Of a stretch of DNA of 64,000 bases, positions 2,186 to 46,135 are shown one piece after another. The DNA lies in NCBI GenBank assembly GCA_028583605.1, contig CM053331.1, forward strand, positions 2,750,001 through 2,814,000. The letters are read 5' to 3'. The notes under the pieces are model-generated. The model saw nothing but the letters and a program-made list of their open reading frames with translations, was not told where the DNA came from and did no database searches. This stretch comes from Dastarcus helophoroides. Taxonomy: Eukaryota; Arthropoda; Insecta; Coleoptera; Bothrideridae. Position 1 is the stretch's first letter. Each line of letters begins with the position of its first letter. The position numbers and the translations under genes were made by a program.

Positions 2186-4439
2186 TTGTCAAGTTACAAT
2201 CGACAACAAAAATTAAACCAATAATTATTTGGGAAACACAGTTGGCTCTTTAATTATCTAAAATACTTCAGTGTGTGTCACCTATAACATTAAATAACTT
2301 TGTTTGTTAACTTGTCAATAAACTTTAACAAAGTATTGTTACTATTAAATAATTTGTCAGTAAACTTTAACAAAGTACCGTTAGAAATAAGTGTCAAGTT
2401 ACAATCGACAATAAGAATAAAAGCAATACTTCTTTGAAAAAAACATTTGGGCTGTTAGTCCTCTAAGGTATATTAAGAATGTTCTCAGGAAATGTCAAGG
2501 TAAAACAAAATAAATTCTTCAGTTTAAAGTTACAAACAAACATCCATGCAATTTTTTGTTGATGAGTATTTTAATTGTCCTGTCGTCTTATGTTTTTTTA
2601 TGAGAATATTTTGGTGTCATGTTACAATCAAGTACAAGAACCAAAATAATCGGTCTTTTTAAAAAAAAGAGTGTTTTTAGAATGTTTTTAGTGCGAGTAA
2701 AGTTATAATCAAGCACAAGAACTGCTGCAAACGTTTTTATAAGAGAAAGTAGTTTTAGAATATTTTTAGTGCGTATCAAGTTACAATCAAACACACAAAG
2801 TACTCTAATTCTTCTATAAAACAACCGCACTTTAAAAATAATTGCAGTAAGTTACTAAATAAAAATAATGTTTAAGTAAGTAAGTATTGAGCTATGAACA
2901 TACCCACACAGTTATTAATTGATAAAAAAAATAATTTTTCCCCCTTTTTAGAGAATTTAACATTATGGGTGTCAAGTTACAATCAAGCCAATTATTTGTT
3001 AAGATGTTAAAACAGTTTTGTGAAAGATTTTAATACTACTGTAGGATTATCAGTGTCTAGTTATAATCAAGCTGTTCCTCTTTGTGAAAAACAGCTGGTA
3101 TATTAGACTTATTAGGTGATTTTGAAATTGTCCCAGTAATTGTCAATATACAAAACAGGCTGAATTGTTCAGTAAGCCTTAAGTAAGTGTCAGGTTAAAG
3201 TCAAACATAAAAACCAAGAAAAATATTCTTTAAGCTAGTTGTGCAGTCATCTTACAAATTTTTTTATTATTTTTAGCAAACGTTTAGTTACAATTAAGCA
3301 CAAAAGTAAGATAACCGCTCTTTATAATATGTCAAATTACATTAGCTTAGTATCTTTAATTACTTTAAGACTATTACCAATTAGTATTAAGTTATAGTCA
3401 AGTACAAACACCAAGGTGATCGCTTTTATACACGAGAGTAGCTTTAGAATATTTTCAGTGTGTGTCAAGTTACAATCAAGCAAAAGAACCACCGCAGTGT
3501 AAATCTCAAATAAGTGTCAGGTTAAAGTTAAGCAGACAAAATGCTCTTTAAGTTGGTTATTTAGTCATCTTATGAATCTTTTTAATTATTTTTAGCAAAA
3601 TTCAAGTTACAATTAAGCACAAAGGTAAGGTAGTCGCCCTTTAAGACAACAAACATGTCAAGTTGCAATAGCTTAGTACCTTTAAGAGTCTTTTCAATTA
3701 GTATCAAGTTATAGTCAAATACAAAAACTAAGCTGATCGCCTTTATAGAAGAGAAAAGCTTAAGAATTTTTTCAGTGTGTGTCAAGTTACAATCAAGCAA
3801 AAGAACCACTGCAGTGTAAATTTTAAGTAAGTGTCAGGTTAAAGTTAAGCAGAAAAAATGCTCTTTAAGTTGGTTATTTAGTCATCTTATGAATCTTTTT
3901 AATTATTTTTAGCAAAAATCAAGTTACAATTAACCACAAAGGTAAGGTAGTCGCTCTTTAAGACAACAAACATGTCAAGTTGCAATAGCTTAGTACCTTT
4001 AAATACTTTAAGACTCTTTCCAATTAATATCAAGTTATAGTCAAATACAAAAACTAAGGTGATTGCCTTTATAAAAGAGAGTAGCTTTAGAATTTTCTCA
4101 GTGTGTGTGTCAAGTTACAATCAAGCAAAAGAACCACTGCAGTGTAAATCAACCACTATATTCTAAGCCTTAAGTGTCAGGTTAAAGTTATGCATACAAG
4201 AAAGGAAGATTTTTTTAAGTTAAAGTAAGGTTATCGCTCTTTGAGACGACAAACGTGTCAAGTTACAATAGCTCAGTTCTTTTAATTACTTTTAGTCTCT
4301 TCCTAATTAATATCAAGTTGTAATCAAGTACAAAAATCAAGGTGATGGTTTTTATAGACGAGAATAAATTTAGAATGTTTTCAGTATCTGTCAAGTTTCT
4401 ATCAAGCGAAAGAACCACTACAGCTTAAGCCTTGAGTAA

Positions 4440-5782
4440 ATGTCAGGTTAAAGTTAAACTTATAAAACAGAAAAATGTTCTTTAAATTAAAGTAAGGTAA
4501 TCGCTCTTTGAGATGACAAATGTGTCAAGTTACAATAGCTTAGTACTTTTAATGATTTTTAGACTCTCTCCAATTAATATCGAGTTAAAACCAAGTACAA
4601 AAACCAAGCTGATGGCTTTTAAAGACAAGAGTAGCTTTAGAAGGTTTTCAATGTGCATCAAGTTACAATCAAGCAAAAGAACCACTACAGTGTAAGCTTT
4701 AGGTAAGCGTCAGGTTAAAGTTAAACATACAAAAAAGGAAAATGTTATTTAAGTTGTAGAAAGGTAATCGTCGTTTAAAATGTTGTCAGTGTTTGTCAAG
4801 TTACAATCAAGCAAAAGAACCACCACACTTTAAACCTTGAGTAAGTATCAGGTTAAAATTAAATACACAAGAAAGGAAAATGCTGTTTAAATTAAAGTAA
4901 GGTAGTTGTTCTTTGAGACGACAAACGTGTCAAGTTACAATAGCTCAGTACCTTTAGTTACTTTGAAACTTTTTCCAATTAGTTTCAAATTATAGTCAAG
5001 TACAAAAACCAAAATGATCGCTTTTATAGAAAAGGGTAGCTTCAGAATCTTTTCAGTGTGTGTCAAGTTACAATCAAGCAAAAGAACCACTACAGCTTTA
5101 GCCTTGAGTAAATGTCAGATTAAAGTTAAACTTATAAAACAGAAAAATGTTCTTTAAACTAAAGTAGGGTAATCGCTCTTTGAGATGACAAATGTGTCAA
5201 GTTACAATAGCTTAGTACTTTTAATGATTTTTAGACTCTCTCCAATTAATATCGAGTTAAAACCAAGTACAAAAACCAAGCTGATGGCTTTTAAAGACAA
5301 GAGTAGCTTTAGAAGGTTTTCAAGGTGCATCAAGTTACAATCAAGCAAAAGAACCACTACAGTGTAAGCTTTAGATAAGCGTCAGGTTAAAGTTAAACAT
5401 ACAAAAAAGGAAAATGTTTTTTAAGTTGTAGTAAGGTAATCGTCGTTTAAAATGTTGTCAGTGTTTGTCAAGTTACAATCAAGCAAAAGAACCACTAGAC
5501 TTTAAACTTTGAGTAAGTATCAGGTTAAAGTTAAATATACAAGAAAGGAAAATGCTGTTTAAATTAAAGTAAAGTAATTTTTCTTAAGGACGAAAAACGT
5601 GTAATTAAAGGTAGTTGTTCTTTGAGACGACAAACGTGTCAAGTTACAATAGCTTAGTACCTTTAGTTACTTTGAGACTATTTCCAATTAGTTTCAAATG
5701 TTTTAAATTATAGTCAAGTACAAAAACCAAAATGATCGCTTTTATAGAAAAGGGTAGCTTCAGAATCTTCTCAGTGTGTGTC
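4440..5782. repeat. 672-bp higher-order duplication inside the 2-10 kb satellite
   Basis: The blocks 4440-5110 and 5112-5782 are near-identical to each other at an offset of 672 bp, much more alike than neighbouring monomers. A recent unequal exchange involving about 2.5 monomers is the simple explanation. The frames at 4513-4695 and 5185-5367, which differ by a single residue, are its visible echo. Confidence 0.8.
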
Positions 5783-7619
5783 AAGTTACAATCAAGCAAA
5801 AGAACCACTACAGTTTTAGCCTTGAGTAAGTATCTGGTTAAAATTAAACATACAAAAAAGAAAAATGTTCTTTGTATTAAACTAAGATAATCGTCCTTTT
5901 AGACGACAAACGTGTCAAGTTACAATAGCTTAATACTTTTAACTACTTTTAGACTCTTTCTAATTAGTATCAAATTATAATCAAGTATAAAAGAAGGTGA
6001 TGGTTTTTATAGACGAAAGTAGCATTCTAATATTCTCAGTATGTGTCAAGTTACAATCGAGCAAAAAAATCACTACAGTGTAAGCCTTAACTAAATGTCA
6101 GATTAAAATTAAACATACAAAAAAGAAAAAAATGTTTTTTAAGTTAAAGTAAGGTTATTGCTCTCTGCCTCGACAAACGTGTCAAGTTACAATAACTTAG
6201 TATTTTTAAATATTTTTAGGCTCTTCCCAATTAGCCTCAAGTTATAACCAAGTACAAAAACCAAGCTGATGGCCTTTAAAGACAGGAGTAGCTTCAGAAT
6301 GTTTTTAGTGTGTGTCAAGTTACAATTAAGCAAAAGAACCACTACAGTATAAGTTTTAAGTAAGTGTCAGGTTAGAGTTAAGCAGACAAAAAATGCTCTT
6401 TAAGTTGATTATTTAGTCATCTTACAAATCTTTTTAATTATTTTTAGCAAAAATAAAGTTACAATTAAGCATAAAGGTAAGGTAGTCGCTCTTTAAGACA
6501 ACAAACATGTCAAGTTGCAATAGCTTAGTACCTTTAATTACTTTAGGACTCTTTCCAATTAGTTCCAAATTATAGTCAAGTACAAAAACCAGAATGATCG
6601 CTTTTATAGAAGAGAGTAGCTTTAGAATCTTCTCAGTGTGTGTCAAGTTACAATCAAGCAAAAGAACCACTACAGTTTAAGCCTTGAGTAAATGTCAGGT
6701 TAAAGGTAAACATACAAAAAAAATGTTCTTTAAATTAATGAAAGGTAACAGCTCTTTGAGATGACAAATGTGTCAAGTTACAATAGCTCAGTACTTTAAA
6801 TTACTTTTAGACTCTTTCAAATTATTATCAAGTTATAATTAAGTACAAAAATCAAGATGATAGTTTAACTTGTGGTTTTTTTGAACCACTACAGTTTAAG
6901 CCTTGAGTAATGTCAGGTTAAAGTTAAACATACAAAAAAAAAAGATAACAAATGTATCAAGTTACAATAGCTCAGTACTTTTAATTACTTTTAGACTTTT
7001 TTAAATTAGTGTCAAGTTATAGTCAAGTACAAAAATCAAGGTGATTTTTTTTATAGAAGACAGTTGCTTTAGAAAGTTCTCAGTGTGTGTCAAGATACAA
7101 TTAAGCAAAAGAACTACTACAGAATAAGTTTTAGGTAAGCGTCAGGTTAAAGTTAAACATACAAAAACAGTAAATGTTCTTTAAATTTAAGTAGAGTAAT
7201 CACTCTTTGAAATGACAAACATGTCAAGTTACAATAGCTTAGTACCTTTAATTACTTAAAGACTTTTTTCAATTAGTTTTAAATTATAGTCATATACAAA
7301 ACCAAAATGATCGCTTTTATAGAAGGAAGTAGCTTTAGAATCTTCCTCGTGTGTGTCAAGTTACAGTCAAGCAAAAGAACCACACAGCTTAAGCCTTGAG
7401 TAAATGTCAGGTTAAAGGTAAACATACAAAAAAGAAAAATGTTCTTTAAATTAATGAAAGGTAATCACTCTTTGAGATGACAAATCTGTCAAGTTACAAT
7501 AGCTCAGTACTTTTAATTACTTTTAGACTCTTTTTAATTATTATCAAGTTGTAATTAAGTACAAAAATCGAGGTGATGGTTTTTATAGGCAAGAGTGACT
7601 TTAAAATGTTTTCAGTGTG

Positions 7620-7656
7620 TGTCAAGTTACAATAAAGCTTTTGCTTGATTGTAACT
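7620..7656. repeat. Short palindrome created by an inverted satellite fragment
   Basis: The satellite motif caagttacaat is followed at once by its own inverted copy (attgtaacttg), giving a hairpin-like palindrome, after which the array resumes in normal orientation with ggttcttttgaaccactac. A related but decayed inversion trace lies at about 6868-6900. These look like small foldback or template-switch scars in the array. Confidence 0.6.
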
Positions 7657-9985
7657 TGTGGTTCTTTTGAACCACTACAGTTTAAGCCTTGAGTAAATGT
7701 CAGGGTAAAGTTAAACATACAAAAAAGAAAAATGTTCTTTGAATTAAAGATACGTAATCGGTTTTTAAGATGACAAATGTGTCAAGTTACAATAGCTCGC
7801 TGCTTTTAATTACTTTTAGACTCTTTTAAATTAGTGTCAAGTTATAGTCAAGTACAAAAAGCAAGGTGCTTTTTTTTATAGAAGACAGTTGCCTTAGAAA
7901 ATTCTCAGTGTGTGTCAAGATACAATTAAGTAAAAGAACCATTACAGTGTATGTTTTAGGTAAGCGTCAGGTTAAAGTTAAACATACAAAAACGGTAAAT
8001 GTTTTTTAAATTTAAGTAAGGTAATCACTTTTTGAGACGACAAACATGTCAAGTTAGAATAGCTCAGCACCTTCAATTATTTAAAGACTTTTTCCAATTA
8101 GTTTCAAATTATAGTCAAGAACAAAAATCAAATGATCGCTTTTATAGAAGAAAGTAGCTTTAAAACCTTTTCAGTGTGTGTCAAGTTAGAATCAAGAAAA
8201 AGAACCACTACAGTGTTAGCCTTGAGTAAGTGTCGGGTTAAATTTAAACATAGAAAAAAAAATGTTTTTTGTGTGAAACTAAGGTAATCGCCCTTTTAGA
8301 CGACAAACGTGTCAAGTTACAATAGGTCAGTACTTTTAACTACTTTTAGACCATTTTTAATTAGTATCAAATTATAATCAATTACAAAAGAAGGTGATGG
8401 TTTTTATAGACGAGAGTAGCATTAAAGTATTCTCAGTGTGTGTAAAGTTACAATCAAGCAAATGAATTATTACCGTGTAAGCCTTAAGTTAATGTCAGGT
8501 TAAAATTAGACATACAAAAAAAAATGTGTTTTAAGTTTAAGCAAGGTGATTGCTCTCTGCCACGACAAACGTGTCAAGTTACAATAGCTCAGTACTTTTA
8601 ATTACCTTTAGACTCTTCCCAATTAGTATCGAGTTATAACAAAATTCAAAAACCAAGCTAATGGCTTTTAAAGACAAGAGTAGCTTTAGAATGTTTTCAA
8701 TGTGTGTCAAGTTACAATCAAGCAAAAGAACCATTACTGTGTAAGCTTTAGGTTAGCGTCAGATTATAGTTCAACATACAAAAAAGAAAAATGCTTTTTA
8801 AATTAAAGTAAGGTAATCACTCTTTAGGAAGTAGCTTTAGAATCTTCCCAGTGTGTGTCAAGTTACAATCAAGCAAAAGAACCACTACAGTTTTAGCCTT
8901 GAGTAAGTGTCAGGTTAAACATACAAAAAAGAAAAATGTTCTTTGTGTTAAATTAAGGTAACCGCCCAGTACTTTTAACTACTTTTAGACTCTTCCTAAT
9001 TAGTATCAAAATATAATCAAATACAAAAGGAGGTGATGGTTTTTATAGACGAGAATTGCATTATAATATTCCCAGTGTGTGTCAAGTTACAATCAAGTAA
9101 AAGGATCATTACAGTGTAAGCCCAAAGTAAACGTGAGGTTAAAGTTGGTAAATGCTTTTTAGAGTGTTTGTCAAGTTACAATCAAGCAAAAGAACCACTA
9201 CACTTTAAACCTTAAGTAAGTGTCAGGTTAAAGTTAAATATACAAAAAAAAGGAAACGCTCTTTAAATTAAAGTGAAGTAATTTTTCTTAAGGACGAAAA
9301 ACGTGTCAAGTTATAATAGCTTAGTACCTTTAAATACTTAAAGACTTTTTCCAATTAGGTTCAAATTATAGTCAGGTACAAAAATCAAAATGATTGCTTT
9401 TCTAGAAGAGGATTGCTTTAGAATCTTCTCAGTGTGTGACAAGTTACAATCAAGCAAAAGAACCACACAGCTTAGGCCTTGAGTAAATGTCAGGTTAAAG
9501 GTAAACATACAAAAAAGAAAAATGGTCTTTAAATTAATGAAAGGTAATCGCTCTTTGAGATGACAAATGTGTCAAGTTACAATAGCTCAGTACTTTTAAT
9601 TACTTTTAGACTCTTTTTAATCATTATCAAGTTGTAATTAAGTACAAAAATCAAGGTGATGGTTTTTATATGCAAGAGTGACTTTAAAATGTTTTCAGTG
9701 TGTGTCAAGTTACAATCAAGCAAAGAACCACTATACTTTAAACCTTAAGTAAGTGTCAGCTTAAAGTTAAACATATAAACATACAAAAAAATGCTCTTTG
9801 AATTAAAGTGAGGTAATTGTTCTTTGAGATGACAAACGTGTCAAGTTACAATAGCTTATTACTTTTAATTACTTTTGTACTATTTTAAATTAGTAGCAAA
9901 TTATAGTCAAGTACAAAAACCAAGGTGATTGCTTTTATAGAAGTGAGCAGCTTTAGAAAGTTTTTAGTGTGTGTCAATCAAGTCC

Positions 9986-10699: not shown

Positions 10700-11000
10700 T
10701 ACAAATAGTTAACAATGGCTAATGTTTATAATGACTGTACTACACTAATTAGGTCAAAGAACACCGAAATTGGTCTATGCTTAGCTGTAAATATTTTCAA
10801 CTGTAGCACCTTCGACTGTCTCATTACAGAATATTTAAGTGACGTTTTGAAATTACTTGGGTAATAATTCATTGGTATTTTACTTACAAAATTTACCAAA
10901 GTATTCTTGATATTACAATGAAGTAAAAGAGACATATTTGTAGTAAACACGATGTGATGACAGTTGTGAAATTTTTTAGTTTTTCGATAGCAATAAGAGG
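10700..11000 (+). mobile_element. Family A repeat, degenerate copy 1
   Basis: The segment aligns by eye with the family A copies at 11.65 and 38.65 kb: the ribozyme-like portion is decayed (ctaatta in place of ctgacga, then gaaattggtctatg), followed by the conserved taaatattttcaactgtagc and a body of about 170 bp. The 106-codon frame at 10726-11046 on the minus strand runs antisense through this repeat and shows no recognisable domain. Confidence 0.5.
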
Positions 11001-11623: not shown

Positions 11624-11676
11624 CTTCCTTGGCGCCTCATCAATATGGTACCGATACAGATGAGGCGCCAAGGAAG
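11624..11676. repeat. Perfect 17-bp inverted repeat (hairpin)
   Basis: Arms 11624-11640 and 11660-11676 are exact reverse complements (core ccttggcgcctca), with a 19-nt loop. The right arm overlaps the stem II position of the degenerate family A ribozyme that follows. The arms are far more GC-rich than the surroundings. It may be a truncated inverted pair of family A elements. Confidence 0.8.
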
Positions 11677-11890
11677 GCCAAAACCGTTCTATGGTTGTTG
11701 GTTGCAAATATTTTCAACTGTAGCAGCACGTATCACCTTCATCATAGTACCTTAAATTGACGTTTTTACGTACCTAAAGGTAGCCAACGACTCTTACATT
11801 CAATGAAAGATAACCCATAATACAAGAAAGTGCCCTCGCTACTAGTACCCTTTGTGATTTTAGTTACATCGTACATCGTACATCGTACAT
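11646..11890 (+). mobile_element. Family A repeat, copy 2, with degenerate hammerhead-like core
   Basis: Aligned to the 38-kb copies this reads: stem I strand accgata (11650-11656), core CAGATGA (11657-11663, consensus CTGACGA), a GGC/GCC stem II, AAAA where GAAA is expected (11680-11683), CCGTTC, then TATGGT, and the conserved caaatattttcaactgtagc. Two core positions are mutated, so no activity is expected. The body continues to the short acatcgt tandem repeat. Confidence 0.6.
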
Positions 11891-22990: not shown

Positions 22991-23280
22991 TATAAATTTT
23001 CAGTCGGAATATTTTGAAGAAAGATAAAAGATTTTAAAAATATTCAAGAAAAACTTTAATTTAATATGTTTAATCCTTGCTTAAGATGCAAATTTCTAAA
23101 TTTTTTGACATTTCAGGAAAAAGTAACGGAGAAATTTGGAAAATAAGAAATTTTGGGAAAACATGTAAGATATTTTTTTAGAAATCTTCCATTTTTTCTG
23201 ACATTTTTGATTTTTGCTTTAAATTTTTGATTTTTTCTCGAAATTTGAACACATTATATAAAAATGTTTAATGTTTTTAT
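22991..23280. other. AT-rich remnant sequence
   Basis: Poly-A/T-rich sequence with decayed satellite-like words and no clear periodicity or gene. Confidence 0.4.
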
Positions 23281-23285
23281 AAAAA

Positions 23286-23372
23286 CTGAAACCACGAAAG
23301 ATTAAAAAATACAACAGAGGTTGCTCTAATGCATTTCGATAGCCAAGCCCTCATCTTCAGAGATATATCTCA
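23286..23372 (-). mobile_element. Family C end with ribozyme-like hairpin, copy 1
   Basis: Minus-strand reading: ctCTGAAGA (core 23354-23360), a GC-bearing stem-loop, TCGAAATGCATTAG, then agcaacctctgttgtattt and aatctttcgtggtttcag. This is the family C consensus seen also at 27.9, 44.9 and 54.3 kb. It abuts the family B tandem array, and the array's far end carries the gataaccaaggaccag tail found at other family C copies, so B and C may be parts of one composite element (23.29-24.5 kb). Confidence 0.65.
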
Positions 23373-23580
23373 AGATTTTTATTTCAATTTTTGGATGCAA
23401 GTAGAATGCAACCTAGACTACGAATTCATGCAGCCCTCCAGACGTTTATAGTGAATCATAGGAAGCTGAACTACCAACAGTTGAAACACTGCCACCTAGC
23501 GAAGCGGTTGCTCTCTAGGAACAATTTCCCAGAAGACAAGGATTCTAATGCACAGACCAATAGGTTTAAACATTGATTAG

Positions 23581-23653
23581 ATTCGAAGTTTGGAAACCAA
23601 AGACCGGTTTCGATCTTGTTAGATTTTGTCAGTTTGGTATATCTAACTCGAAT
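23581..23653 (-). ncRNA. Hammerhead ribozyme relic (family B unit 1)
   Basis: Same layout as the intact copy, with GATC/GAAA/CCGGTC/TTTGGT preserved, but the first core block reads CTGACAA (G8 changed to A) and the first stem II pair is lost (A opposite C). Cleavage is not expected. Confidence 0.65.
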
Positions 23654-23950
23654 GCTAACAAATATTCCGACAAGTAAGTACTAAAGAATTCCCAGACGAC
23701 AAGCGTGTGACTCTTAAGTACTACCACCTATTGGTCCATAGAGAAACTATGGCCATCGCCAACAATGTCGTATGCAACCTAGGCTACAAATTCATGCAGC
23801 CCTCCAGGCGGCGTGTATAGGGAATCATAGGTAGCTGAACTACCAACAGTTGAAACACTGCCACCTAGCGAAGCGGTTGTTCTCTAGGAAAGTTCCCAGA
23901 AGACAAGGATTCTAATATGCACAGACCAATAGGTTTGAATATTTATTAGA

Positions 23951-24023
23951 TTCGAAGTTTGGAAACCAAAGACCGGTTTCAATCTTGTTAGATCTCCTCA
24001 GTTTGGTATATCCAACTCGAATG
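23951..24023 (-). ncRNA. Hammerhead ribozyme, type I-like, intact core
   Basis: Minus-strand elements in order: distal stem I strand (24008-24023), proximal stem I strand ACCAAA (24007-24002), core CTGAGGA (24001-23995, fits CUGANGA), stem II GATC/GATT around loop TAACAA (23994-23981, one G-U pair), core GAAA (23980-23977), very short stem III within CCGGT, cleavage triplet GTC (predicted cut between 23971 and 23970), then TTTGGT (23970-23965), which pairs perfectly with ACCAAA, and a distal stem I strand (23964-23951) pairing with bulges. The small internal loop in stem I is where natural hammerheads contact the stem II loop. All catalytic positions match the consensus. The ultra-short stem III is typical of retroelement hammerheads, which may act as dimers. 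Activity is inferred. Confidence 0.75.
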
Positions 24024-24319
24024 CTAACAAATGTTCCGACAAGTAAGTACTAAAGAATTCACAGACGACAAGCGTGTGACTCTTAGTACTACCACCTATT
24101 GGTCCACAGAGAAACTATGGCCATCGCCAACAATGTCATATGCAACCTAGACTACAAATTCATGCAGCCCTCCAGGCGGCGTGTATAGTGAATTATAGGT
24201 AGTTGAACTACCAACAGTTGAAACACTGCCACCTAGCGAAGCGGCTGCTCTCTAGGAACAATTTCCTAGAAGATAAGGATTCTAATGCACAGACCAATAG
24301 GTTTGAACATTTATTAGAT

Positions 24320-24398
24320 TTGTTAGCATTCGAGTTGGATATACCAAACTGACGAGATCTAACAAGATCAAAACCGGTCTTTGGTTTCGAAACTTCGA
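24320..24398 (+). ncRNA. Hammerhead ribozyme relic (inverted family B copy)
   Basis: Plus strand: proximal stem I ACCAAA, core CTGACGA (24349-24355), perfect stem II GATC/GATC around TAACAA (24356-24369), then AAAA instead of GAAA (position 24370 G12 to A), CCGGTC (24374-24379) and TTTGGT. Only one core base is broken. Its inverted orientation shows what the parent looked like: CTGACGA with a fully paired stem II. Confidence 0.7.
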
Positions 24399-24500
24399 AT
24401 CTAATAAATGCTCAAACCTATTGGTCTGTGCATTAGAATCCTGGTCTTCTGGGAAATTGTTCCTAGAGAGAGATAACCAAGGACCAGTCTGTTCGTCCAT

Positions 24501-25192
24501 AATGTTTTTATATTTTGTTTATACTTCAGTTTTACCTTGAGACTGTGATGTCAGATGCGTTAAGGGATAAGGATTAAGGATTAAGTTCTAAAAGTCTCCC
24601 CTTGGGTGCGCCACACTTAGATACTCTTAGGTACGAAACACTAAAAGTAATTTCTGCTTTCGCGTAACGGAATTGATGCATGATTCGAATTCAGCGAGAT
24701 AAAGATGAGTTATCCTGTTTAAATGGTGCGTTTTGGTCCAAATTGTGTCAAACCGTTGAATGGGGAATCCACCCAATAGAAGGAATATCTATGGAGAAGT
24801 GTTGACAAGGGATAGGGTAATATGGGGGCTATCTTCACCTTTATTCCTTACCGTGACTTATATCTCCCTGATATATTGATGGATGGAGTTGAAGGGCGCG
24901 AATGATAAATGATGTCTTGTCCCAAGCGGGACCTATCTATGTTGGATCTAAACGTCGGCCATCATAAATTTCATTTTTGAACAGTTTAGCTCCATTATAT
25001 TACATGTTTCTACATTCAACATTTGTAAGAGTTGGGTAGAATGTCAGGCAACGTTAGGTTAGATGTTGCATTTCATTTGTGGGATTCAGATTAGATTTTG
25101 TAAAATAAGTAGGTGTTATAATGAACAATTTCCACAGCAACCTAACCTAACTTTGACTTTTTCTGATGATAATGTAAAAACTGTAACAATGT
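24501..25192. other. Single-copy region, no gene supported
   Basis: Mixed-composition sequence with no repeat period and no coding signal. A small cluster of ttaggtt/aacctaac words lies near 25050-25150, the same words as the telomeric tract at 34.7 kb, but too few to be called a tract. Confidence 0.4.
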
Positions 25193-25271
25193 TGTTACAA
25201 GATTTGCATTAGTAAGGAATTCTCTAGAAAAATTTAAGAATGGGAGGCGGCCGCCATAATAAATCATACGA

Positions 25272-27625
25272 CAGATAAGCACTCTAGATGTTTCCGCATG
25301 CGATTATCTGTACGGATTCCGTTCTCGAAAACCGGAAGCCTTTAAATACGCGGTTGTCTTTCCCTCAGTCAATTCATTGACTTCACTGAGGGAAAGCTGT
25401 CAGTTAATTAAACAGTGAGTTAGTTAGTTAATCAGTTGGTCAGTTAACCGACGGCAGATAAGCACTCTAGATGTTTCCGCAAGCGATTATCTGTACGGAT
25501 TCCGTTCTCGAAAACCGTAAGCCTATAAATACGCGGTCGTCTTTCCCTCAGTGAAGTCAATGACTTCACTGAGGGAAAGTTGTCAGTTAATTTAATAGTG
25601 AATTAGTTAGTTAGTCAGTTGGTCAGTTAACTGACGGCAGATAAGTACTCTAGAGATATCTGTACGAATTCCATTCTCGAAAACCGGAAGCCTATAAATA
25701 CGCGGTCGTCTTTCCCTCAGTCAAGTCATTGACTTCACTGAGGAAAAGCTGTCAGTTAATTAAACAGTGAGTTAGTTAGTTAGTCAGTTTTTCAGTTAAC
25801 TGACAGCAGATAAGCCACTCTAGATGTTTCCGCAAGCGATTATCTGTACGGATTCCGTTCTCGAAAACCGTAAGCCTATAAATACGCGGTCGTCTTTCCC
25901 TCAGTCAATTCATTGACTTCACTGAAGGAAAGCTGTCAGTTAATTAAACAGTGGCTTAGTTAGTTAATCAGTTGGTCAGTTAACCGACGGCAGATAAGCA
26001 CTCTAGATGTTTCCGCAAGCGATTATCTGTACGGATTCCGTTCTCGAAAACCGTAAGCCTATAAATACGCGGTCGTCTTTCCCTCAGTGAAGTCATTGAC
26101 TCCACTGAGGGAAAGTTGTCAGTTACTTTAATAGTGAATTAGTTAGTTAGTCAGTTGGTCAGTTAACTGACGGCAGATAAGTACTCTAGAGATATCTGTA
26201 CGAATTCCATTCTCGAAAACCGGAAGCCTATAAATACGCGGTCTTCTTTCCCTCAGTCAAGTCATTGACTTCACTGAGGAAAAGCTGTCAGTTAATTAAA
26301 CAGTGAGTTAGTTAGTTAGTCAGTTTTTCAGTTAACCGACGGCAGATAAGCACTCTAGATGTTTCCGCAAGCGATTATCTGTACGGATTCCGTTCTCGAA
26401 AACCGTAAGCCTATAAATACGCGGTCGTCTTTCCCTCAGTCAATTCATTGACTTCACTGAGGGAAAGCTGTCAGTTAATTAAACAGCGGCTTAGTTAGTT
26501 AATCAGTTGGTCAGTTAACCGACGGCAGATAAGCACTCTAGATGTTTCCGCAAGCGATTATCTGTACGGATTCCGTTCTCGAAAACCGTAAGCCTATAAA
26601 TACGCGGTCGTCTTTCCCTCAGTGAAGTCATTGACTTCACTGAGGGAAAGTTGTCAGTTAATTAAACAGTGAGTTAGTTAGTTAGTCAGTTTTTCAGTTA
26701 ACTGACAGCGGATAAGCCACTCTAGATGTTTCCGCAAGCGATTATCTGTACGGATTCCGTTCTCGAAAACCGTAAGCCTATAAATACGCGGTCGTCTTTC
26801 CCTCAGTCAAGTCATTGACTTCACTGAGGAAAAGCTGTCAGTTAATTAAACAGTGAGTTAGTTAGTTAGTCAGTTTTTCAGTTAACTGACAGCGGATAAG
26901 CCACTCTAGATGTTTCCGCAAGCGATTATCTGTACGGATTCCGTTCTCGAAAACCGTAAGCCTATAAATACGCGGTCGTCTTTCCCTCAGTCAATTCATT
27001 GACTTCACTGAGGGAAAGCTGTCAGTTAATTAAACAGTGGCTTAGTTAGTTAATCAGTTGGTCAGTTAACCGACGGCAGATAAGCACTCTAGATGTTTCC
27101 GCAAGCGATTATCTGTACGGATTCCGTTCTCGAAAACCGTAAGCCTATAAATACGCGGTCGTCTTTCCCTCAGTGAAGTCATTGACTTCACTGAGGGAAA
27201 GCTGCGAGTTAATTAAACAGTGAGTTAGTTAGTTAATCAGTTGGTCAGTTAACTGACGGCAGATAAGCACTCTAGATGTTTCCGCAAGCGACTATCTGTA
27301 TGGATTTCGTTCTCGAAAACCGGAAGCCTATAAATACGCGGTCGTCTTTCCTTTAGTCAAGTCATTGACTTCACTGAGGGAAAGCTCTGAGTTAATTAAA
27401 CAGTGAGTTAGTTAGTTAGTCAGTTGATCAGTTAACTGACGGCAGATAAGTACTCTAAAGATTTTTGCAAGCAATTATCTGTGCGGAGTCCATTCTCGAA
27501 AACCGGAAGCCTATAAATACGCGGTCGTCTTTCCCTCAGTCAAGTCATCGACTTTACTGAGAGAAAGTTGTCATTTAATTAAACAGTGAGCTAGTTGGTT
27601 AGTTAGTTGGTCAGTTAACTGAATT
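25272..27625 (+). repeat. Tandem array of 13 promoter units (~183 bp; two of 169 bp)
   Basis: Unit starts (cagataag or close variant): 25272, 25455, 25638, 25807, 25991, 26174, 26343, 26525, 26709, 26893, 27077, 27260 and 27443. Spacing is 182-184 bp except 169 bp after 25638 and 26174, where atgtttccgcaagcgatt is lost. The two blocks starting at 25455 and 25991 repeat the same long-short-long order (536 and 534 bp), so a three-unit block was itself duplicated. Copies differ by only a few bases, which implies recent expansion. Confidence 0.9.
25524..25578 (+). promoter_or_regulatory. Representative core promoter: TATA, TCAGT initiator and start-site hairpin
   Basis: TATAAATA lies at 25524-25531 and TCAGTG at 25548-25553, with the initiator A 26 bp from the first TATA base, as in arthropod TATA/initiator promoters. 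The initiator is inside a perfect inverted repeat: 18-bp arms at 25542-25559 and 25561-25578 (inner part gtgaagtca / tgacttcac) around one base. An RNA starting at this A would have most of the right-hand structure at its 5' end. Sister units have the same layout, though some carry mismatches (for example tcagtcaattca at 25376) and the first has TTTAAATA. Confidence 0.65.
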
Positions 27626-27709: not shown

Positions 27710-27923
27710 CGATTGAATATATCTGCAGTGTGGGATTACATGGGTAGTTATTAATGGCAATGGGTCGATTATTAGTGGAGATAGTGGCTAGTACTCGAGA
27801 GATATTTTTATAAACGTTTTGAGTTTTGCGAATCTTTGAGAAAAACATGTAATGCTGACGAAAATTTTCCACGTATTGATTATCGACGAATCATCTTTTT
27901 TTCATCATAGATTCCAATACAAA
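27710..27923. other. Short single-copy spacer
   Basis: No recognisable feature. The 68-codon minus-strand frame at 27666-27872 overlaps the LTR end and has no recognisable motif. Confidence 0.4.
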
Positions 27924-28110
27924 TATTATCTCCTGAAACCAAGAAAGATTAAAAAACACAACAAAGCTTGCTCTAACGCGTATCCTTCTGAAGATGATAG
28001 CTTGGCTGTCGAAACACGTTAGAGCAACCTTTGTGGTGTTTTTTAATCTTTCTTGGTTTCAGGGGAGAAGATTTGTATTTAAATTTTTGAAGATAACCAA
28101 GTATGAGTCC
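27924..28110. mobile_element. Family C, two copies head-to-head (foldback)
   Basis: Left half (27924-27985) is a minus-strand family C end: acaaat, cctgaaaccaagaaag, attaaaaaacacaac, ttgctctaacgcg. Right half (27986-28080) is a plus-strand copy: CTGAAGA (27988-27994), stem GATAGC/GCTGTC, GAAAC, acgttagagcaacc, aatctttcttggtttcag and the gatttgtattt end. The halves are inverse complements over about 60 bp. A partial gaagataaccaag tail follows. The left half lost its ribozyme-like core at the junction. Confidence 0.75.
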
Positions 28111-29924
28111 GTATGCACCAAAATCATAGATTTTATAATCTTAAGCTAGTTTTGTTTAAGTTCAATCAGTCAAGCCTAGAAAAATAGACAGTTAAGTGTT
28201 CGTGTCAGAATACTGTATCTATTCAGACATTGGATTATGTTAGGTAATTTCATCGTTGGTGCATTTTTCACAAACAACTATCTAACTGGCGACAAAAGTT
28301 AAATAAGCTCCAAAAATAAATAATCCGACATTAAACATTAATTTTGTGGATGCGTCCTTATTGTTTCTTAGAATTCGTGTTGTGTGTGTCAAAACGGTTA
28401 AATATTTTTGTAAAGCATTACATTCATTTATTTTTTTTGCATTTCTGTTCTACTTTTCATCAGATCAGTTGATAAATGAAACCAAACATTGAAAATAGAT
28501 GCAATTATTTTCATATTTGTTTCAAGTATATACAAACACAAATAATTATGTGGTGACATAATTGCGAAACGATTTTTTTTCCAAGAGAGTAAGAGTTAGA
28601 GTGAAACATCACTCTAATCAGTCTGCCATGCCATTGCATTTAATAATTGGATACTAATGTGATAGAGTCTGTTGACCTATGAAGTCGTAAACCATTTGTT
28701 ATAATCAGCAGCGCCATATCAGAGCTTTTTGAGTTGGTTTTTACCTCTCTTTTAAAAAGTTGATCAAATTTCTTCCTCACTCTTCCCTCTTTATTAAACC
28801 TTCCTAATACTTGGTTAAAATCAATGACATATTGACTGAGACGTCCCCCAAGTTGAATTTTATTATTCTTAAATGCGTTAATGTTGCAAGCGTTTTAAAA
28901 AATATTTCCCCATCTGACGCCAGAGCCCCAATTCTGTTTGAATTTAAAATCTATTCGTGTCGCATGTTGATGGGGTTGCACGGTGGTGATTTTAACAAAC
29001 GCGCACGTTAATTGGTTTTGTTTTATTTGCCGCGGACACCGAACAAGTGTCAGGAAAGTTAGATGGGGTTTCCAATTTCAGTTCAGGTCAAATATTCCCC
29101 ATCTGGCACGCCCCAAAAATCTTATGTGTGGCGAGGTTGAGTGACGTTTTACGCCAACCGTAACATTTTCACTAGCCGGCTGATTGTATATAGCCAGTTG
29201 CAGACAATTTAACATCCCCTAAAAATCGCACCCTTTGGGCGCGAGCGTAAGAATCTTTTACGATTTCACAGGGTGCGTTGCAGTAACACATTTTATGTTA
29301 TTACTGGATATTACCCTCGACCTCGTCCGCGGAATGACATGAATTGCCTTTCCTACTTAACAAAAAAAAATGTCCAAAATTCAAGACAGTTTTTAGGTTT
29401 GTTAAATTGACGCTTGAAATTGTTTTATTTTTATGTTTTGTATATTAGGTAATTAGTTTGTATAAACGTAGTAAAACTAACTTAATCATCTAGACACAGT
29501 TTTAAAGAGTTCGTGCAGGTGGCAGAATGATATTTTGTTCAAATTCGTTGATTTAATCACGGGATGATTCATTCATAATGGCATTAATTTTACCAGAAGG
29601 TAGAGAAAAATTAATATGACACGAATCCGTTATTAAAAATATATATTTATAGTACATTTTCGCCGAAAAATATCATTTCATTTAGTCGAAAGTTTAGAAA
29701 AAGAAAAAACAGTTATTGCTAGTTTAAAGTCAGAATTTTGAAAAAAAAACCACTCTGAAAGGAAAAGGAACTCACCCCTTTTTAAAAATTTATAAATAAA
29801 AAAATTGTTAACGAGTCAAGTTTATTTATAAATCTTCAAATTCTGTTTCAAAATTTCGATATTAAATTTAAATGTTCGATTTTTTCTTTGACATTTATTC
29901 CTGAGATTTCACTCGAAACCAGTG
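28111..29924. other. Single-copy region with one stray 241-bp-type unit
   Basis: About 28300-28575 is a diverged single copy of the 241-bp satellite found at 35.7-37.65 kb (shared words: gatgcaattattttcata, tgtttcaa). The part from about 28580 to 29340 is more balanced in composition and looks non-coding. The 66-codon frame at 28811-29011 has no recognisable motif. 29340-29924 is AT-rich with nothing definite. Confidence 0.45.
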
Positions 29925-34092: not shown

Positions 34093-34680
34093 TAGTCCCC
34101 CGAAATGAAGAACTAGGTCTACTTGATTTTAAGTTTTTTTTTTGCAGTGTTTCCTTCTTGTACAAAAAAACTTTTCAGATAGTCACTTAATGACAAAATA
34201 TAAGGCCTTAGAGGGCAATCTACCATAGAAATATCCGAATTTCATCGAAGTTAACACTCCGAATGATCCCAACAATGCTTATTTGGTCTCCGTTTCTTTT
34301 AACAAGTTGGCGTGCTTCTAGGGGCGAGTTAAATTGCAGATAATACTCTTCGATCAGCGATTAAAATCCAATGATTTAATTTAGTTTCTACAATCACGCG
34401 AAGCAATTCCGAGCCAATCTTAATCCGACCAAATGCCCATTTCTAAACCTAACCATGGGAAATCCGTTGTTGATCCTTTATTGCACGCTTGCTGCGATCA
34501 ACAAGTTTCTAAGTGAGAGTCTCGTGAATTCGCTTGAAAATTATTGAAAATTGAACCGTTTCGTGCCGCGTGTTTATACGATGATTACTAGCTTAATAAA
34601 GAAGAATTTTAGAAAAGAAGTTTGGCTTCGTTAGCTTAAGCAAACGCATTATGTACAATATTTACCAATTTATTAATTAA
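34093..34680. other. Single-copy spacer left of the telomeric tract
   Basis: No repeat, hairpin or coding signal seen. Confidence 0.4.
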
Positions 34681-35258
34681 GTTAGGTTAGGTTAGGTTAG
34701 GTTAAGTTAGGTAGGGTTAGGTTAGGTTAGGTTAGGTTAGCTTAGGTTAGGTTAGGTTAGGTTAGGTTAGGTTAGGTTAGGTTAGGTTAGGTTAGGTTAG
34801 GTTAGGTTAGGTTAGGTTAGGTTAGGTTAGGTTAGGTTAGGTTAGGTTAGGTTAGGTTAGGTTAGGTTAGGTTAGGTTAGGTTAGGTTAGGTTAGGTTGG
34901 GTTAGGTTAGGTTAGGTTAGGTTAGGTTAGGTTAGGTTAGGTTAGGTTAGGTTAGGTTAGGTTAAGGTTAGGTTAGGTTAGGTTAGGTTAGGTTAGGTTA
35001 GGTTAGGTTAGGTTAGGTTAGGTTAGGTTAGGTTAGGTTAGGTTAGGTTAGGTTAGGTTAGGTTAGGTTAGGTTAGGTTAGGTTAGGTTAGGTTAGGTTA
35101 GGTTAGGTTAGGTTAGGTAGGTTAGGTTAGGTTAGGTTAGGTTAGGTTAGGTTAGGTTAGGTTAGGTTAGGTTAGGTTAGGTTAGGTTAGGTTAGGTTAG
35201 GTTAGGTTAGGTTAGGTTAAGTTAGGTTAGGTTAGGTTAGGTTTAGTTAGGCTTGGTA
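34681..35258. repeat. Interstitial (TTAGG)n telomere-type tract, ~115 units
   Basis: Almost uninterrupted TTAGG pentamers over 578 bp on the plus strand, with a few variant units (ttaag, tagggttagg, ttagc, ttggg, ttaagg) mostly near the ends and middle. TTAGG is the ancestral arthropod telomere repeat. It is flanked by ordinary sequence on both sides, so it is interstitial here and not a chromosome end, unless the assembly is wrong. Left flank is aattaattaag, right flank tttagttaggcttgg. Confidence 0.95.
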
Positions 35259-35734: not shown

Positions 35735-37650
35735 TAACTTTAAAGATTGTGGTTTAAATTTGGTTGGACTAGTTAATTACTCTTATACAATTCTACGATC
35801 ATTTAATGTTTAGTATTTTTGTTTCAATTTTCGTCAGATTAGATTAGAGAAAACAAAAATTAAAATTGATACAATTATTTTCATACTTGTTTCAATGCAA
35901 ACAAATATATAATAGTGTTTCGAAAATAAACTCTTAAATGAACGTGGTTAAAAACGTGGATCCCCAAACTCCAGTTAATGAGCATTTCTTGTTTAAATTT
36001 TGCTTGGACTAGTTAATTATTCTCAGACGATCATTTCATTTTTAGTATTTCTCTTTCAATTTTCGCCAAATTAAGTTAGAGAGAACAAAAATTAAAATTG
36101 ATACAATTATTTTCATACTTGTTTCAGTGCAGTCAAACATTTAACAAGTGTTTCGAAAAGAAACTCTTGAATAGGCGTGGTTAAAAACGTGGATTCCCAA
36201 ACTCCAGCGAATGAGAATTGCTTGTTTAAATTTTGGTTGGACTAGTTAATTACTCTCATTATAGTTTTATGATCATTCATTTTTAGCAGTTCTGTTTCAA
36301 TTTCCGCCAGATTAGATTAGAGAAAAGAGAAATTAAAACTGATACAATTATTTTCATACTTGTTTCAATGCAGTCAAATAATTAACAACTGTTTTGAAAA
36401 GAAACCCTTGAGTGGGCATGGTTAAAAACGTGGATTTTCAAACTCCAGTTAATGAGAATTTCTTGTTTAAATTTTGGTTGGACTAGTTAATTACTCGCAT
36501 ACAATTCTACGATTATTTAATTTTTATTATTTCTGGTTTCAATTTCCGCCAGATTAGATTAATGAGAACAGAAATTAAAACTGATGCAATTATTTTCACA
36601 CTTGTTTCAATGCAGTCAAATATTTAACAAGTGTTTCGAAAAGAAACTCTTGAGCGGGCGTGGTTAAAAATGTGGATCCCCAAATTCTAGTGAATGAGAA
36701 TTGCTTGTTTAAATTTAGGCTGGACTAGTTAATTATTCTCAGACAGTTTTACCATCATTTAATTTTCAGTATTACCGTTTTAATTTCCGCCAGATTAAAT
36801 TAGAGAAAACAGAAATTAAAATTGATACAATTATTTTCATACTTGTTTCAATGCAGTCAAATATTTTACAAATGTTTCAAAAAGAAACTCATGAGTGGGC
36901 GTGGGTAAAAACCTGGATCCCCAAACTCCAGTTAATGAGAATTTCTTGTTTAAATTTTTGTTGGACTAATTAATTATTCTCAGACAGTTTTACGATCATT
37001 CATTTTTGGTATTTCTGTTTCAATTTCCGTTAGATTAAATTAGAGATAACAGGAATTAAAATTGATACAATTATTTTCATTCTTGTTTCAATGCAATCAA
37101 ATATTTAACAAGTGTTTCGAAAATAAACTTTTGAATAAACGTGGTTAAAAACGTGGGTCTTTAAATTCCACTGAATGAGAATTGCTTGTTTAAATTTTGG
37201 TTGGACTAGTTAATTATTCTCAGACACTTTTACGATCATTTAATTTTTAGTATTTCTGTTTTCATTTCCGCCAGATTTGATTAGAGAGAACAAAAATTAA
37301 AACTGATACAATTATTTTCATACTTGTTTCAATGCGCTTAAATATTTAACAAGTGTTTCGAAAAGAAACTCTTAAATGAGCGTAGTTAAAAACGTGGATC
37401 CCCAAACTCCAGTGAATGAGAATTGCTTGTTTAAATTTTGGTTGGACTAGTTAATTATTCTCAAACAGTTTTACGATCATTTAATTTCTAGTATTTCTGT
37501 TTCAATTTCCGCCTAATTAGATTAGAGAAAACAGAAATTAAAATTGATTAAATTATTTTCATACTTGTTTCAATGCAGTCAGATAAGTACAAGTATTTTG
37601 AAAAGAAACTCTTGAGTAAGTGTGTTTAAAAACGTAAATCTCCAAACTCC
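35735..37650. repeat. 241-bp satellite, ~8 units
   Basis: Landmark cgtggatccccaaactc (or variants) recurs at 35955, 36188, 36429, 36671, 36912, 37152, 37393 and 37633: spacing 233, then 240-242 bp. Each unit also has ggttggactagttaatta, caatttccgccagatta and acaattattttcatactt. Copies are moderately diverged. A related single unit sits at 28300-28575, 7 kb away across the telomeric tract. Confidence 0.9.
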
Positions 37651-38045
37651 AGTGAATTGGAATTGCGCTGATATATTCCAGATATTTCAAGCTTAAGCCA
37701 GGAATAATTAATTTGTTGTCGGTGTTATTAACGAAATGACATCGGTGCATTCATATGCAGTAAGTTACATGGAAGGGTTGGTGAGCGTTCACCGCATTAC
37801 GTCAGTATCAGCAATCTCATACTCGTTTTATAGGAAAACTCTGTCGCGTTGAAGCCGAAACTATAGTTACTCCGCTTCTACCGTTGGGAATATAAGCTAA
37901 ATCAGAAATGCATTCGCTCAAATGGCATTTCCATCCGTTTACAATGCGACCTTATCAATGGGAAACAACTACATAGAGCTGAAAAAAAGGATGTTATTTA
38001 TCGCTATAGTCAATTAAATGTCTTACAACGAAACAGTCGATTGTG
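37651..38045. other. Single-copy spacer
   Basis: No repeat structure. A 63-codon minus-strand frame (37559-37750) starts inside the satellite and has no recognisable domain. Confidence 0.4.
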
Positions 38046-38141
38046 CTCCAGTTGAAAATATGTACAATCAACAACCGTAAGCCGGTTTCGATCTTTCTTG
38101 TCCTCGTCAGTATGGTGCGGTTGCTGTAAACATTTCCAACT
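38046..38141 (-). ncRNA. Hammerhead-like ribozyme, family A (core motifs kept)
   Basis: Minus strand: long distal stem I strand, ACCATA, CTGACGA (38110-38104), GGACAAGAAAGATC as a weak stem II (G-C, G-U, one A-A mismatch, C-G), GAAA (38090-38087), CCGGCT, then TACGGT pairing with ACCATA with one A-C mismatch, and a distal strand that pairs over about 20 bp with one bulge. Both core blocks fit the hammerhead consensus, but the cleavage triplet is GGCT or GCT instead of GUC, probably mutated from the GGTC seen in family B. Reduced or no activity is likely. Confidence 0.5.
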
Positions 38142-38190
38142 TATATATCTCCTAATGCACAGACTAATAGGTTTGAACATTTATTAGATT

Positions 38191-38262
38191 CGAAGTTTGG
38201 AAACCAATACCGGTTTCTATCTTGTTGGATCTCGTCAGTTTGGTATGTCCAACTCGAATGCT
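38191..38262 (-). ncRNA. Hammerhead relic, nested family B copy
   Basis: Minus strand keeps CTGACGA, GATC, loop CAACAA, GAAA and CCGGTA (GTA is an allowed cleavage triplet). However, the first stem II pair is G opposite A and one base of the proximal stem I is missing (ATTGGT). Confidence 0.55.
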
Positions 38263-38650
38263 AACAAATGTTCCGACAAGTAAGTACTAAAAAAATCATA
38301 GACGTCAAGCGTGTGACTCTTGGTCGCGTGTCACCTATTGGTCCATAGAGAAACTATGGCCATCGCCAACAATCTCGTATGCGAATCTAATAAATGTTCA
38401 AACCTATTGGTCTGTGCATTGGAATCGTTGTCCTCTGGGAACTTTCCTAGAGAGCAACCGCTTCGCTAAGTGGCAGTGTTTCAACTGTTGGTAATTCAGC
38501 TACCTATGATTCACTATACACGCCTGAAGGGCTGCATAAATTTGTAGTCTAGGTTGCATTCTACTTGCAAACTTATAGAGCCTTAAGACATTGTTTTTAT
38601 ATAAGTTGCAAATGCTTATATAGCCATAAACAACGTTTTATGGTTGTATA

Positions 38651-38746
38651 AGTTGGAAATGTTTACAGCAACCTCACCATTCTGACGAGGATAAGAAAGA
38701 CCTAAACCGGCTTACGGTTGTTGATTGTAGATATTTTCAACTGGAG
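38651..38746 (+). ncRNA. Hammerhead-like relic, family A right end
   Basis: Inverse copy of the left end. CTGACGA is kept (38682-38688), but GAAA has become TAAA and ACCATA has become ACCATT, so the core is broken. Confidence 0.5.
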
Positions 38747-38966
38747 TTAAAAGTTGGAAGCTGAAAATTGCAAGCTGAAAGAAAGTGCTGGCTGTAAATA
38801 TTTTCAACTGTAGCACGCTTGACTGCATTGCAGAACATACAATTGACTTTATTTATGAAAGCGTGTCCCACCAAAGATGCTTTTTTAATGCATGTTGGTA
38901 TACAACCCATAATACAAGACAGTTGCCTCACTAATGGTGACTTTTGAGACTTTAGTTACATCGTGC
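38747..38966 (+). mobile_element. Family A repeat body, copy 3
   Basis: From gctgtaaatattttcaactg the sequence matches the bodies at 10.78 and 11.70 kb, through ccataatacaagacagt to gactttagttacatcgt. The minus-strand frame at 38737-38931 lies across this repeat and is not a supported gene. Confidence 0.6.
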
Positions 38967-44904: not shown

Positions 44905-45090
44905 AGTCATCATCAGAGATATACCCCTCTGAAGATGATAGCTTAGCTATTGAAACGTGTTAGAGCAACCTTTGTTGGGTTTTTTGATCTTTTTTGGTTT
45001 TAGGAAACAAGATTTGTATTTAATTTTTTTTTGTAAATTTAATAAAGATAACCAAGGACCACTCCGTTCCAAGTCATCATCTGGAGAAGG
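44905..45090 (+). mobile_element. Family C end with ribozyme-like hairpin, copy 4
   Basis: CTGAAGA (44929-44935), stem GATAGC/GCTATT, GAAAC, gtgttagagcaacctttgtt, then ttttttggttttagg, acaagatttgtatttaa and the gataaccaaggaccac tail at 45049. This copy shows the element's 3' order clearly: hairpin, conserved spacer, AT stretch, tail. Confidence 0.7.
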
Positions 45091-46135
45091 CAGTTTTATC
45101 CATTAAAAAAGAGGAAAATTTTCGTGCCCAAAGAAGAAAAATTTATCCGTAAGGAAACGTCAACTTAATAAAACCAAAATTTATTTATCGGATTCAAGGA
45201 TTTGTTATTGCTTCCTTGCGTTTCTCCTTTTCCAAATTTTCATACATTTAGAGATTTGGATAAAAAAACAGGCGACGAAACAGCTTTATCAGAGCATCTT
45301 CCTAAGGTATTTCTCCTTTCAAATGGTACTGGGGATACGTTTTAGGCAATTTTGTGTATTTTCGCGCATATGTTATTTATATGAAAGGAAACGAAAGTCA
45401 AATGGTCGACGATAAATTACGAGACGCAAGTTATTGCTCCATTAATATGCGTTCGTAGCTGTATAACGCGGATATGAAAACTATAAATGATTTACTTCCT
45501 TTTGCCCCCAAATATTCAACTTTTTATTACCCGGAGTATGTACTGAAAGAGTTAAATGTGGGACTTTCCCAACGCCCTCTTTCACTTCATTTTGAATATT
45601 TACCTTAAGAGAATTTATTCCCGTAATAAACTCTTACGTCGAAGTCGTTTTCCATTTAACAGCTTTGTTTGTTAAGTTGTCTACCTACTGTTTAAATAAA
45701 CAAAATAATATAACAGCAGCTGGCCTCGTTTTAATAAGATTATTCGCCACTTTGTCTGCGAAAATAATTGTCTTTTGGAAAACAGCCAAGAATTAAAAAG
45801 AATCTTCAAATTTGTTAACTTGATCAATCAATTTGTTTTATTTTAATATTTAAATTTCCTTCTGGTTTTAGTTAACAACCAGATATTGCATACTTTCTGA
45901 TTTATAAAATTAGTCTGCACAAACCTAATAAAACTAGCTCCATCAGATGTACACAGTTTTAAAATGTTCGTGTAGTTTGCAGAATTATATTTTGTTCAAA
46001 TTTATTGATTCCTTCAGTGGCATATTTAGCTATCTTGTAGCGACTCATCAGCTATATATTTTCGTCAAAATCCCTTCAGGAATGAAGCCACAGAAAGCTA
46101 ATAGATAGACAAACACACGCATATATACTTTGGTG
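45091..46135. other. Single-copy region, no gene supported
   Basis: No tandem structure. 45340-45760 is relatively balanced in composition and looks like ordinary intergenic or intronic DNA. Confidence 0.4.

Follow-up and report, generated by a model that had tools for sequence, protein, structure and literature searches.

A dispersed, retrozyme-like hammerhead repeat in Dastarcus helophoroides with insertion ends resembling those of Penelope-like elements

Introduction

Metazoan non-LTR retrozymes are described, in the excerpts of PMC7229834 and PMC4918200 used here, as non-coding tandem units of 150–450 bp that carry a type I hammerhead ribozyme, have a GC content below 50%, give self-paired RNA and show target duplications of more than 4 bp. 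As the machinery that mobilises them, the cited part of PMC7229834 names Penelope as a strong candidate: type I hammerheads and a tandem order are common to both kinds of element, and the genomes studied there contain both. For Penelope-like elements, excerpts of PMC3846280 report inverted pLTRs with an optional tail on one of them, palindromic junctions and target duplications of 8–10 bp, with some insertions lacking any. The Anolis element PAc cuts and extends both target strands, initiates inside its RNA and needs no ribozyme cleavage in vitro (PMC11167929, in part). A further relative is pDo500 of Dolichopoda cave crickets, an insect tandem repeat with a hammerhead for which single and double folds were proposed (PMC2837043, in part).

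Here we compare these systems with a repeat, element A, found in 64,000 nucleotides of the beetle Dastarcus helophoroides (the window, C7:2750001-2814000 of an assembly of 538.9 Mb in 50 contigs).

Results and Discussion

The window holds four hammerhead copies:

23579..23650, minus strand: hammerhead A1, G8 changed to A, first (closing) pair of stem II broken
23948..24019, minus strand: hammerhead A2, full core, GUC cleavage site between 23971 and 23970
24331..24402, plus strand: hammerhead A3, G12 changed to A, situated in an inverted half-unit
38186..38256, minus strand: hammerhead A4, core letters kept, GUA site, 1-nt deletion (slip) in stem I, G.A pair closing stem II

All parts of a type I hammerhead (CUGANGA, GAAA, NUH and stems I to III) are present in A2. 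Its core reads CUGAGGA and GAAA, stem II is GAUC/GAUU plus one U-A pair, stem III is A[CCGG]U and stem I is ACCAAA/UUUGGU with a long distal extension. With a strict descriptor of core and stems I to III, this copy is the sole match in the window, and 300 simulated windows (150 second-order Markov, 150 block-shuffled) give no match; for a loose core pattern, 0.85 chance occurrences are expected per window. The minus-strand hammerhead with core, GUC and three stems, as first read from the bare sequence, is thereby borne out, and so are the damaged sister copies, to which we add the inverted orientation of the half-unit of A3. Pattern scans of prokaryote and viral contigs gave no match.

The Rfam model HH9 (RF02275) scores A2 with 32.4, A3 with 31.5, A1 with 27.9 and A4 with 19.4 bits. 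For A1–A3 this corresponds to E-values of 6e-6 to 2e-4 in 1.3 kb and of 3e-4 to 9e-3 over the whole window; A4 has an E-value of 0.07 in 1 kb and is unlisted in the whole-window scan at E up to 1. No hammerhead match in the window reaches the Rfam gathering cut-off of 52 bits. The original prediction had proposed this covariance search and had named the lack of any match above threshold as the first of its refuting outcomes: HH9 does match all four copies, and formally this first outcome is what we obtained. We infer that the very short stem III depresses the score. The E-values of the window-wide scan need care, since it also gives microRNA and snoRNA families, nearly all in a CT-rich tract near 43.1 kb with up to 60 bits, below gathering, which look like effects of composition. 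The pair counts of the four window copies contain no covariation, as the copies are too alike.

Stem III of A2 consists of one A-U pair with a palindromic CCGG cap, so that a 6-bp intermolecular stem is possible. The axolotl Amex1 ribozyme has the same palindromic one-pair design and works better as a dimer, while invertebrate retrozymes are described with a more stable stem III (PMC7229834, in part). The computed double-hammerhead fold of A2 has −47.3 kcal/mol versus −19.9 kcal/mol for the single open hammerhead; the unconstrained minima are other structures (−29.3 kcal/mol for one strand, −61.0 for two). We regard A2 as a real hammerhead.

A1 to A3 belong to one tandem array:

23397..24470, minus strand (sense/ribozyme strand): main array of element A, two full units and one partial unit
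23397, minus strand: 3′ end of the main array at unit position 377 (...CTACTTGCA), the opposite side being the inverted half-unit
24318..24470, plus strand: inverted half-unit, head-to-head joint at 24320

On the plus strand, the units of 23397-24470 stand in antisense order. Tandem Repeats Finder (TRF) gives a period of 369 bp for 23406-24320 (2.5 copies, 92% matches), and the copy spacings are 366–369, which confirms the tandem repeat of about 366 bp that had been predicted. As a unit size, 366 holds locally; in the genome the unit is mostly longer, with 374–381 nt in 67 of 77 full units. The local copies diverge from A2 by about 5–8%, the sense frames of the array are interrupted by stops, and among 20 window ORFs no Pfam family was found above its cut-off (four families lie below). 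Given G8A, we expect A1 to be inactive in cis, and given G12A, A3 to be inactive as well. Release of a monomer requires two active ribozymes in tandem. Since only one of the two in tandem is complete, the locus should not release monomers now, and together with the inversion of A3 and the divergence of the copies this speaks against the claim of the original prediction that self-cleaving RNAs of about 366 nt, able to circularise, are, or recently were, made here.

The array lacks a target duplication of its own and has its inner end at unit position ~256–259. It lacks 11 nt of its 3′ end at internal junctions. These 11 nt could not be upheld as an added tail, as most genome copies have them at such junctions; the window array probably lost them by slippage between TTGCA repeats. 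The surroundings belong to another element:

23269..23281, plus strand: left copy of the 13-bp target site duplication TAATGTTTTTATA that flanks the hosting Penelope-like element
23282..24499, no strand assigned: Penelope-like fragment hosting the main array, with pLTR and tail pieces outside 23397-24470
23286..23366, minus strand: pLTR piece that itself carries a minimal hammerhead-like motif and matches the pLTR region of locus L046 at 84%
23371..23396, plus strand: sense 3′ end of the pLTR (...TTTCAATTTTTGGA), adjoining the array on the left
24471..24499, plus strand: Penelope-like tail (AGATAACCAAGGACCAGTC...), aligning to the tail of locus L029 up to 24488 and adjoining the array on the right
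24500..24512, plus strand: 13-bp target site duplication TAATGTTTTTATA, right copy

Judged by these neighbours, the main array is an old relic copy inside the pLTR/tail of a Penelope-like element. Elsewhere in the window are more pieces of pLTR, related to that of L046 with its hammerhead, at 27899-27981 (−), 27987-28123 (+), 44927-45028 (+), 46129-46203 (−), 46377-46422 (+) and 54225-54327 (−), two sets of which are head-to-head pairs. Between two inverted Penelope arms, at 46202-46381, a 30-bp repeat that is partly self-complementary (AGTTGCTCTA...TAGAGCAACTGTTG) stands six times; it looks like pLTR sequence expanded at the head-to-head junction.

Element A is dispersed over contigs C1 to C13. 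A 631-nt query gave at least 111 matches (40 scored of 4426 candidates) and a unit query at least 126 (40 scored of 1054), and the great majority of the listed copies have 97–99% identity to the query unit. We took 39 loci of 3.6–5.2 kb, including the window array; as they were picked as the best matches to the window query, multi-unit copies are over-represented among them. An intact hammerhead core is kept by 95 of 114 distinct units (103 of 123 rows, left from 130 found at E up to 1e-8 after 7 with more than 5 gaps were dropped), where a rough expectation of ~0.617 applies if the core decayed like the rest of the motif. Of the 114, 74 have GUA as their cleavage site and 26 have GUC. This agrees with the predicted placement beside animal retrozymes, namely a type I hammerhead in non-coding tandem units of a few hundred bp. 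Among its refuting outcomes the original prediction had also named the lack of a core better conserved than the rest of the unit. Core positions are slightly better conserved than other motif positions (0.978 versus 0.957), and the hammerhead has no significant excess over the rest of the unit in 77 full units (0.968 versus 0.960, p 0.13) or among the copies of the window. The best Rfam score in three genome loci of element A scanned is 34.4 bits. It is reached by all five ribozymes of L016:1354-3193, an insertion of four full and two partial near-identical units with a 12-bp duplication; in each of the three alignments displayed the core is complete, and hence intact copies exist in the genome.

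The GC content of element A is 0.42. It contains no ORF for a reverse transcriptase and GIY-YIG endonuclease, as an autonomous Penelope-like element would, and no ORF-sized insert lies between units within the mapped arrays (pieces up to 260 bp apart; gaps of 0.3–1.1 kb between separate clusters in L006 and L014 are outside this count).

The ends of the copies were mapped on a ruler unit (L009:1692-2068) in which the ribozyme cuts after position 170. Terminal copies stop at one of two 3′ sites, unit 377 or ~229. Ten young copies, chosen because their last unit was listed as ending at 378, all stop at precisely this letter and then continue into different flanks. The base after unit 377 is a T at 36 of 39 terminal ends, counted once 6 variants of internal junctions had been dropped from 45. 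Among 17 pieces stopping between 205 and 262, 14 stop at 219–232, before unrelated sequence; the exceptions are the 256 end of the main array and two inside arrays.

For an end census we used the largest cluster of each of 40 loci (the 39 plus A4). Two outward-facing 3′ ends of the type 229/377, joined head-to-head, occur in 17 of the 40, 229/229 in one and 377/377 in none; a 5′ end is paired with 377 in eight and with 229 in seven loci, and seven have other ends. Hence, where both end types are known, one of each is used in 17 of 18 two-ended loci (binomial p 7e-5 under the assumption that the two ends are used independently and equally often). Exact flanking duplications of at least 12 bp are present in 12 of 40 loci (control 0.0), of at least 10 bp in 15 (0.13) and of at least 8 bp in 21 (1.07), the controls being means per 40 over 30 rounds in which flanks were swapped between loci. 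The mode is 12 bp. Duplications of at least 10 bp are found in 11 of the 17 two-ended 229/377 loci and are absent from 25 of all 40.

The 229/377 loci of element A have two inverted, outward 3′ ends of which only one bears a tail, as in Penelope-type integration, and A also shows the retrozyme traits of lacking an LTR and of duplications above 4 bp, here of at least 12 bp in 12 of 40 loci. At the start side, 4 of 63 mapped starts fall within 5 nt of the ribozyme cut (1.8 expected, p 0.115) and 11 of 63 within 20 nt (p 0.088); five starts at unit 1 may be mapping artefacts. As the starts do not lie significantly at the cut, a self-cleaved RNA as template is without support. An apparently fixed 5′ end at unit 329 was revealed by ten fetched copies to be an artefact of the search window and was dismissed.

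The second insertion of element A in the window follows the 229/377 pairing, from which the main array deviates:

38138..38149, plus strand: left target duplication of A4 (AACTTATATATC), matching the right copy in 10 of 12 letters, including all of the first 8
38150..38569, plus strand: copy A4, in which an inverted piece with its end at unit ~227 is joined head-to-head to a sense piece that ends at 377
38570..38581, plus strand: right target duplication of A4 (AACTTATAGAGC)
38046..38145, minus strand: B1, which has a decayed hammerhead-like domain and is one arm of an older palindromic element
38647..38746, plus strand: B2, the other arm of element B

The exact part of the A4 duplication is AACTTATA. 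A4 was inserted within element B, and its excision restores an inverted repeat of 276 aligned positions with 86% identity. Family B is a second, older dispersed family with more pieces at 11654-11872, 10721-10846 and 38786-38964. Most B copies have a decayed hammerhead-like domain, with C-G as third stem II pair in one copy and U-A in another. A model of element A finds B1 with 26.6 and B2 with 24.3 bits, and the antisense strand of A scores equally (26.7); in plain alignment to A, B1 beats all but 4–8 of 2000 shuffles and B2 is unremarkable. That B is a Penelope pLTR, considered since it lies near GIY-YIG in 3 of 30 loci, was dropped: this proximity proves nothing, because B is at least equally frequent in the window itself.

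Satellites are abundant in this stretch of DNA, with tandem arrays at 3362-9977 (~267 bp), 25268-27622 (~183 bp), 35752-37666 (~241 bp) and 47373-49389 (~271 bp); in these four, Rfam detects no hammerhead at E up to 1 and the model of A gives no strong match. At 34677-35251 lies an interstitial array of ~115 telomere-type TTAGG repeats (96% matches), a repeat type that points to an arthropod.

Penelope-like elements are themselves present. We found at least 91 matches to GIY-YIG (PF01541; 150 scored of 1070 candidates), and ten ORFs from such loci gave five GIY-YIG and two RVT_1 domains above cut-off and nothing in three. A hammerhead-like motif occurs 21 times in 15 of 30 GIY-YIG loci, as counted with 34 letters and 6 edits allowed, derived from the same loci and without a chance control. 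Among the Penelope 3′ ends, one class is untailed (...TTTCAAT) and the other continues for ~38 letters more, as divided by a line set by eye after the data were seen (up to position 104 untailed, from 117 tailed). With this division, eight of ten outward end pairs combine a tailed with an untailed end, two are unclear and none is of one kind; the ten comprise six clear pairs in the 30 GIY-YIG loci, two clear ones in the window and the two unclear ones. Three of the ten have duplications of 11, 12 and 13 bp (without a chance control), three more have 7-bp matches and four have none. The mode of 12 bp in element A thus matches the 11–13 bp of this small Penelope sample.

From this likeness of ends and duplications, Penelope machinery is the best candidate for moving element A. 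We consider it probable that element A, with its ~377-nt unit and its type I hammerhead whose one-pair stem III is capped by palindromic CCGG, is a retrozyme-like, non-autonomous element mobilised by a Penelope reverse transcriptase/endonuclease. The partner is inferred from anatomy only, since no sequence common to element A and the 30 GIY-YIG loci was found. Two counterpoints are that the "tail" interval measures 148 nt in A versus ~38 nt in the Penelope elements of this genome, and that duplications of at least 10 bp are absent from 7 of 10 Penelope pairs. As for the route, a Penelope-like enzyme would take the RNA of element A in trans and cut both target strands, cDNA would begin at the two internal sites 229 and 377, and two cDNAs would be joined at their 5′ sides into a head-to-head copy. 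The hammerhead would trim multimeric transcripts, probably best as a dimer.

Three other readings compete with this one. In one of them the units are no independent element but the debris of pLTRs from an autonomous Penelope family with ORF copies that we failed to find; the hammerhead, the tandem order, the inverted junctions and the length of the duplications would all suit pLTRs. It appears unlikely to us, given that ORF-sized inserts between units within the mapped arrays and similarity to the 30 GIY-YIG loci are both lacking, and that A2 has no ATG at stem II, where PAc, the single published element compared, has its start codon (PMC11167929, in part). That the repeat is ordinary satellite DNA which unequal exchange has spread, and its hammerhead a chance or fossil motif, is highly improbable: the arrays are tandem, in a satellite-rich window, and their motif is conserved no better than the rest of the unit, but they are short and dispersed with fixed ends, the 12-bp duplications largely contradict such an origin, and the core is kept in most distinct units.

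The classical metazoan retrozyme, in which self-cleaved monomers are circularised and the circles copied round and round by a LINE reverse transcriptase into phased tandems, is the third. Units of element A are indeed tandem and phased, and a circle of the 369 nt from one local GUC site to the other is strongly self-paired, with a computed −121.5 kcal/mol (−85.5 ± 6.0 for shuffles, 0 of 100 as low). This scheme nevertheless seems quite unlikely here, because the starts of A do not cluster significantly at the cut and because LINEs are not known to leave two different outward-facing 3′ ends, both fixed, at each insertion. A possible template is a circle on which cDNA starts at two internal sites. 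The reverse transcriptases other than Penelope are abundant in this genome (16001 RVT_1 candidates, 150 scored). In other animals circles are documented and have been proposed as templates (PMC7229834; PMC4918200, both in part), and 15-bp duplications in Nematostella were called LINE-like (PMC4918200, in part).

Returning to the reading as a Penelope-mobilised element, A shares with the metazoan retrozymes the type I hammerhead, the non-coding tandem units of 150–450 bp, the low GC content, the self-paired RNA and the duplications, but differs in its two fixed outward 3′ ends, one of each, and in its head-to-head junctions (PMC7229834; PMC4918200, in part). We did not find a two-ended pairing for retrozymes in the excerpts of retrozyme and Penelope literature examined, to which Penelope hammerhead papers of 2014 and 2017 do not belong. 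With Pen2a of Adineta vaga and PAc, element A has in common the inverted head-to-head arrangement, the single tailed 3′ end, the hammerhead in the terminal repeat and target duplications, of 8–10 bp there and with a mode of 12 bp in A; it differs by the missing ORF, a tail interval of 148 nt versus ~31–38 nt and the long stem I (PMC3846280; PMC11167929, in part). pDo500 in turn is a ~500-bp satellite for which the cited part of PMC2837043 describes no insertion ends. Plant LTR retrozymes, with a type III hammerhead in LTRs and 4-bp duplications, are unlike element A with its type I hammerhead and 12-bp duplications.

Conclusion

In summary, the window contains copies of a self-cutting RNA repeat that are old and mostly broken, while the repeat itself is dispersed genome-wide. 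The analysis gives insertion-level evidence, from one genome, that retrozyme-like and Penelope elements are alike in their asymmetric end pair and in duplication length. Somewhat in favour of this idea, we suggest that animal retrozymes may be SINE-like parasites of Penelope, whose RNA would be accepted in trans, with both target strands cut and one cDNA obligatorily begun at each of two internal sites; the ribozyme would then not set the ends of genomic copies, and RNA circles would be dispensable as template. If this is true, every two-ended insertion should have one "tailed" and one "untailed" end, and cDNA is predicted to start at unit 229 for one of these ends and at unit 377 for the other.
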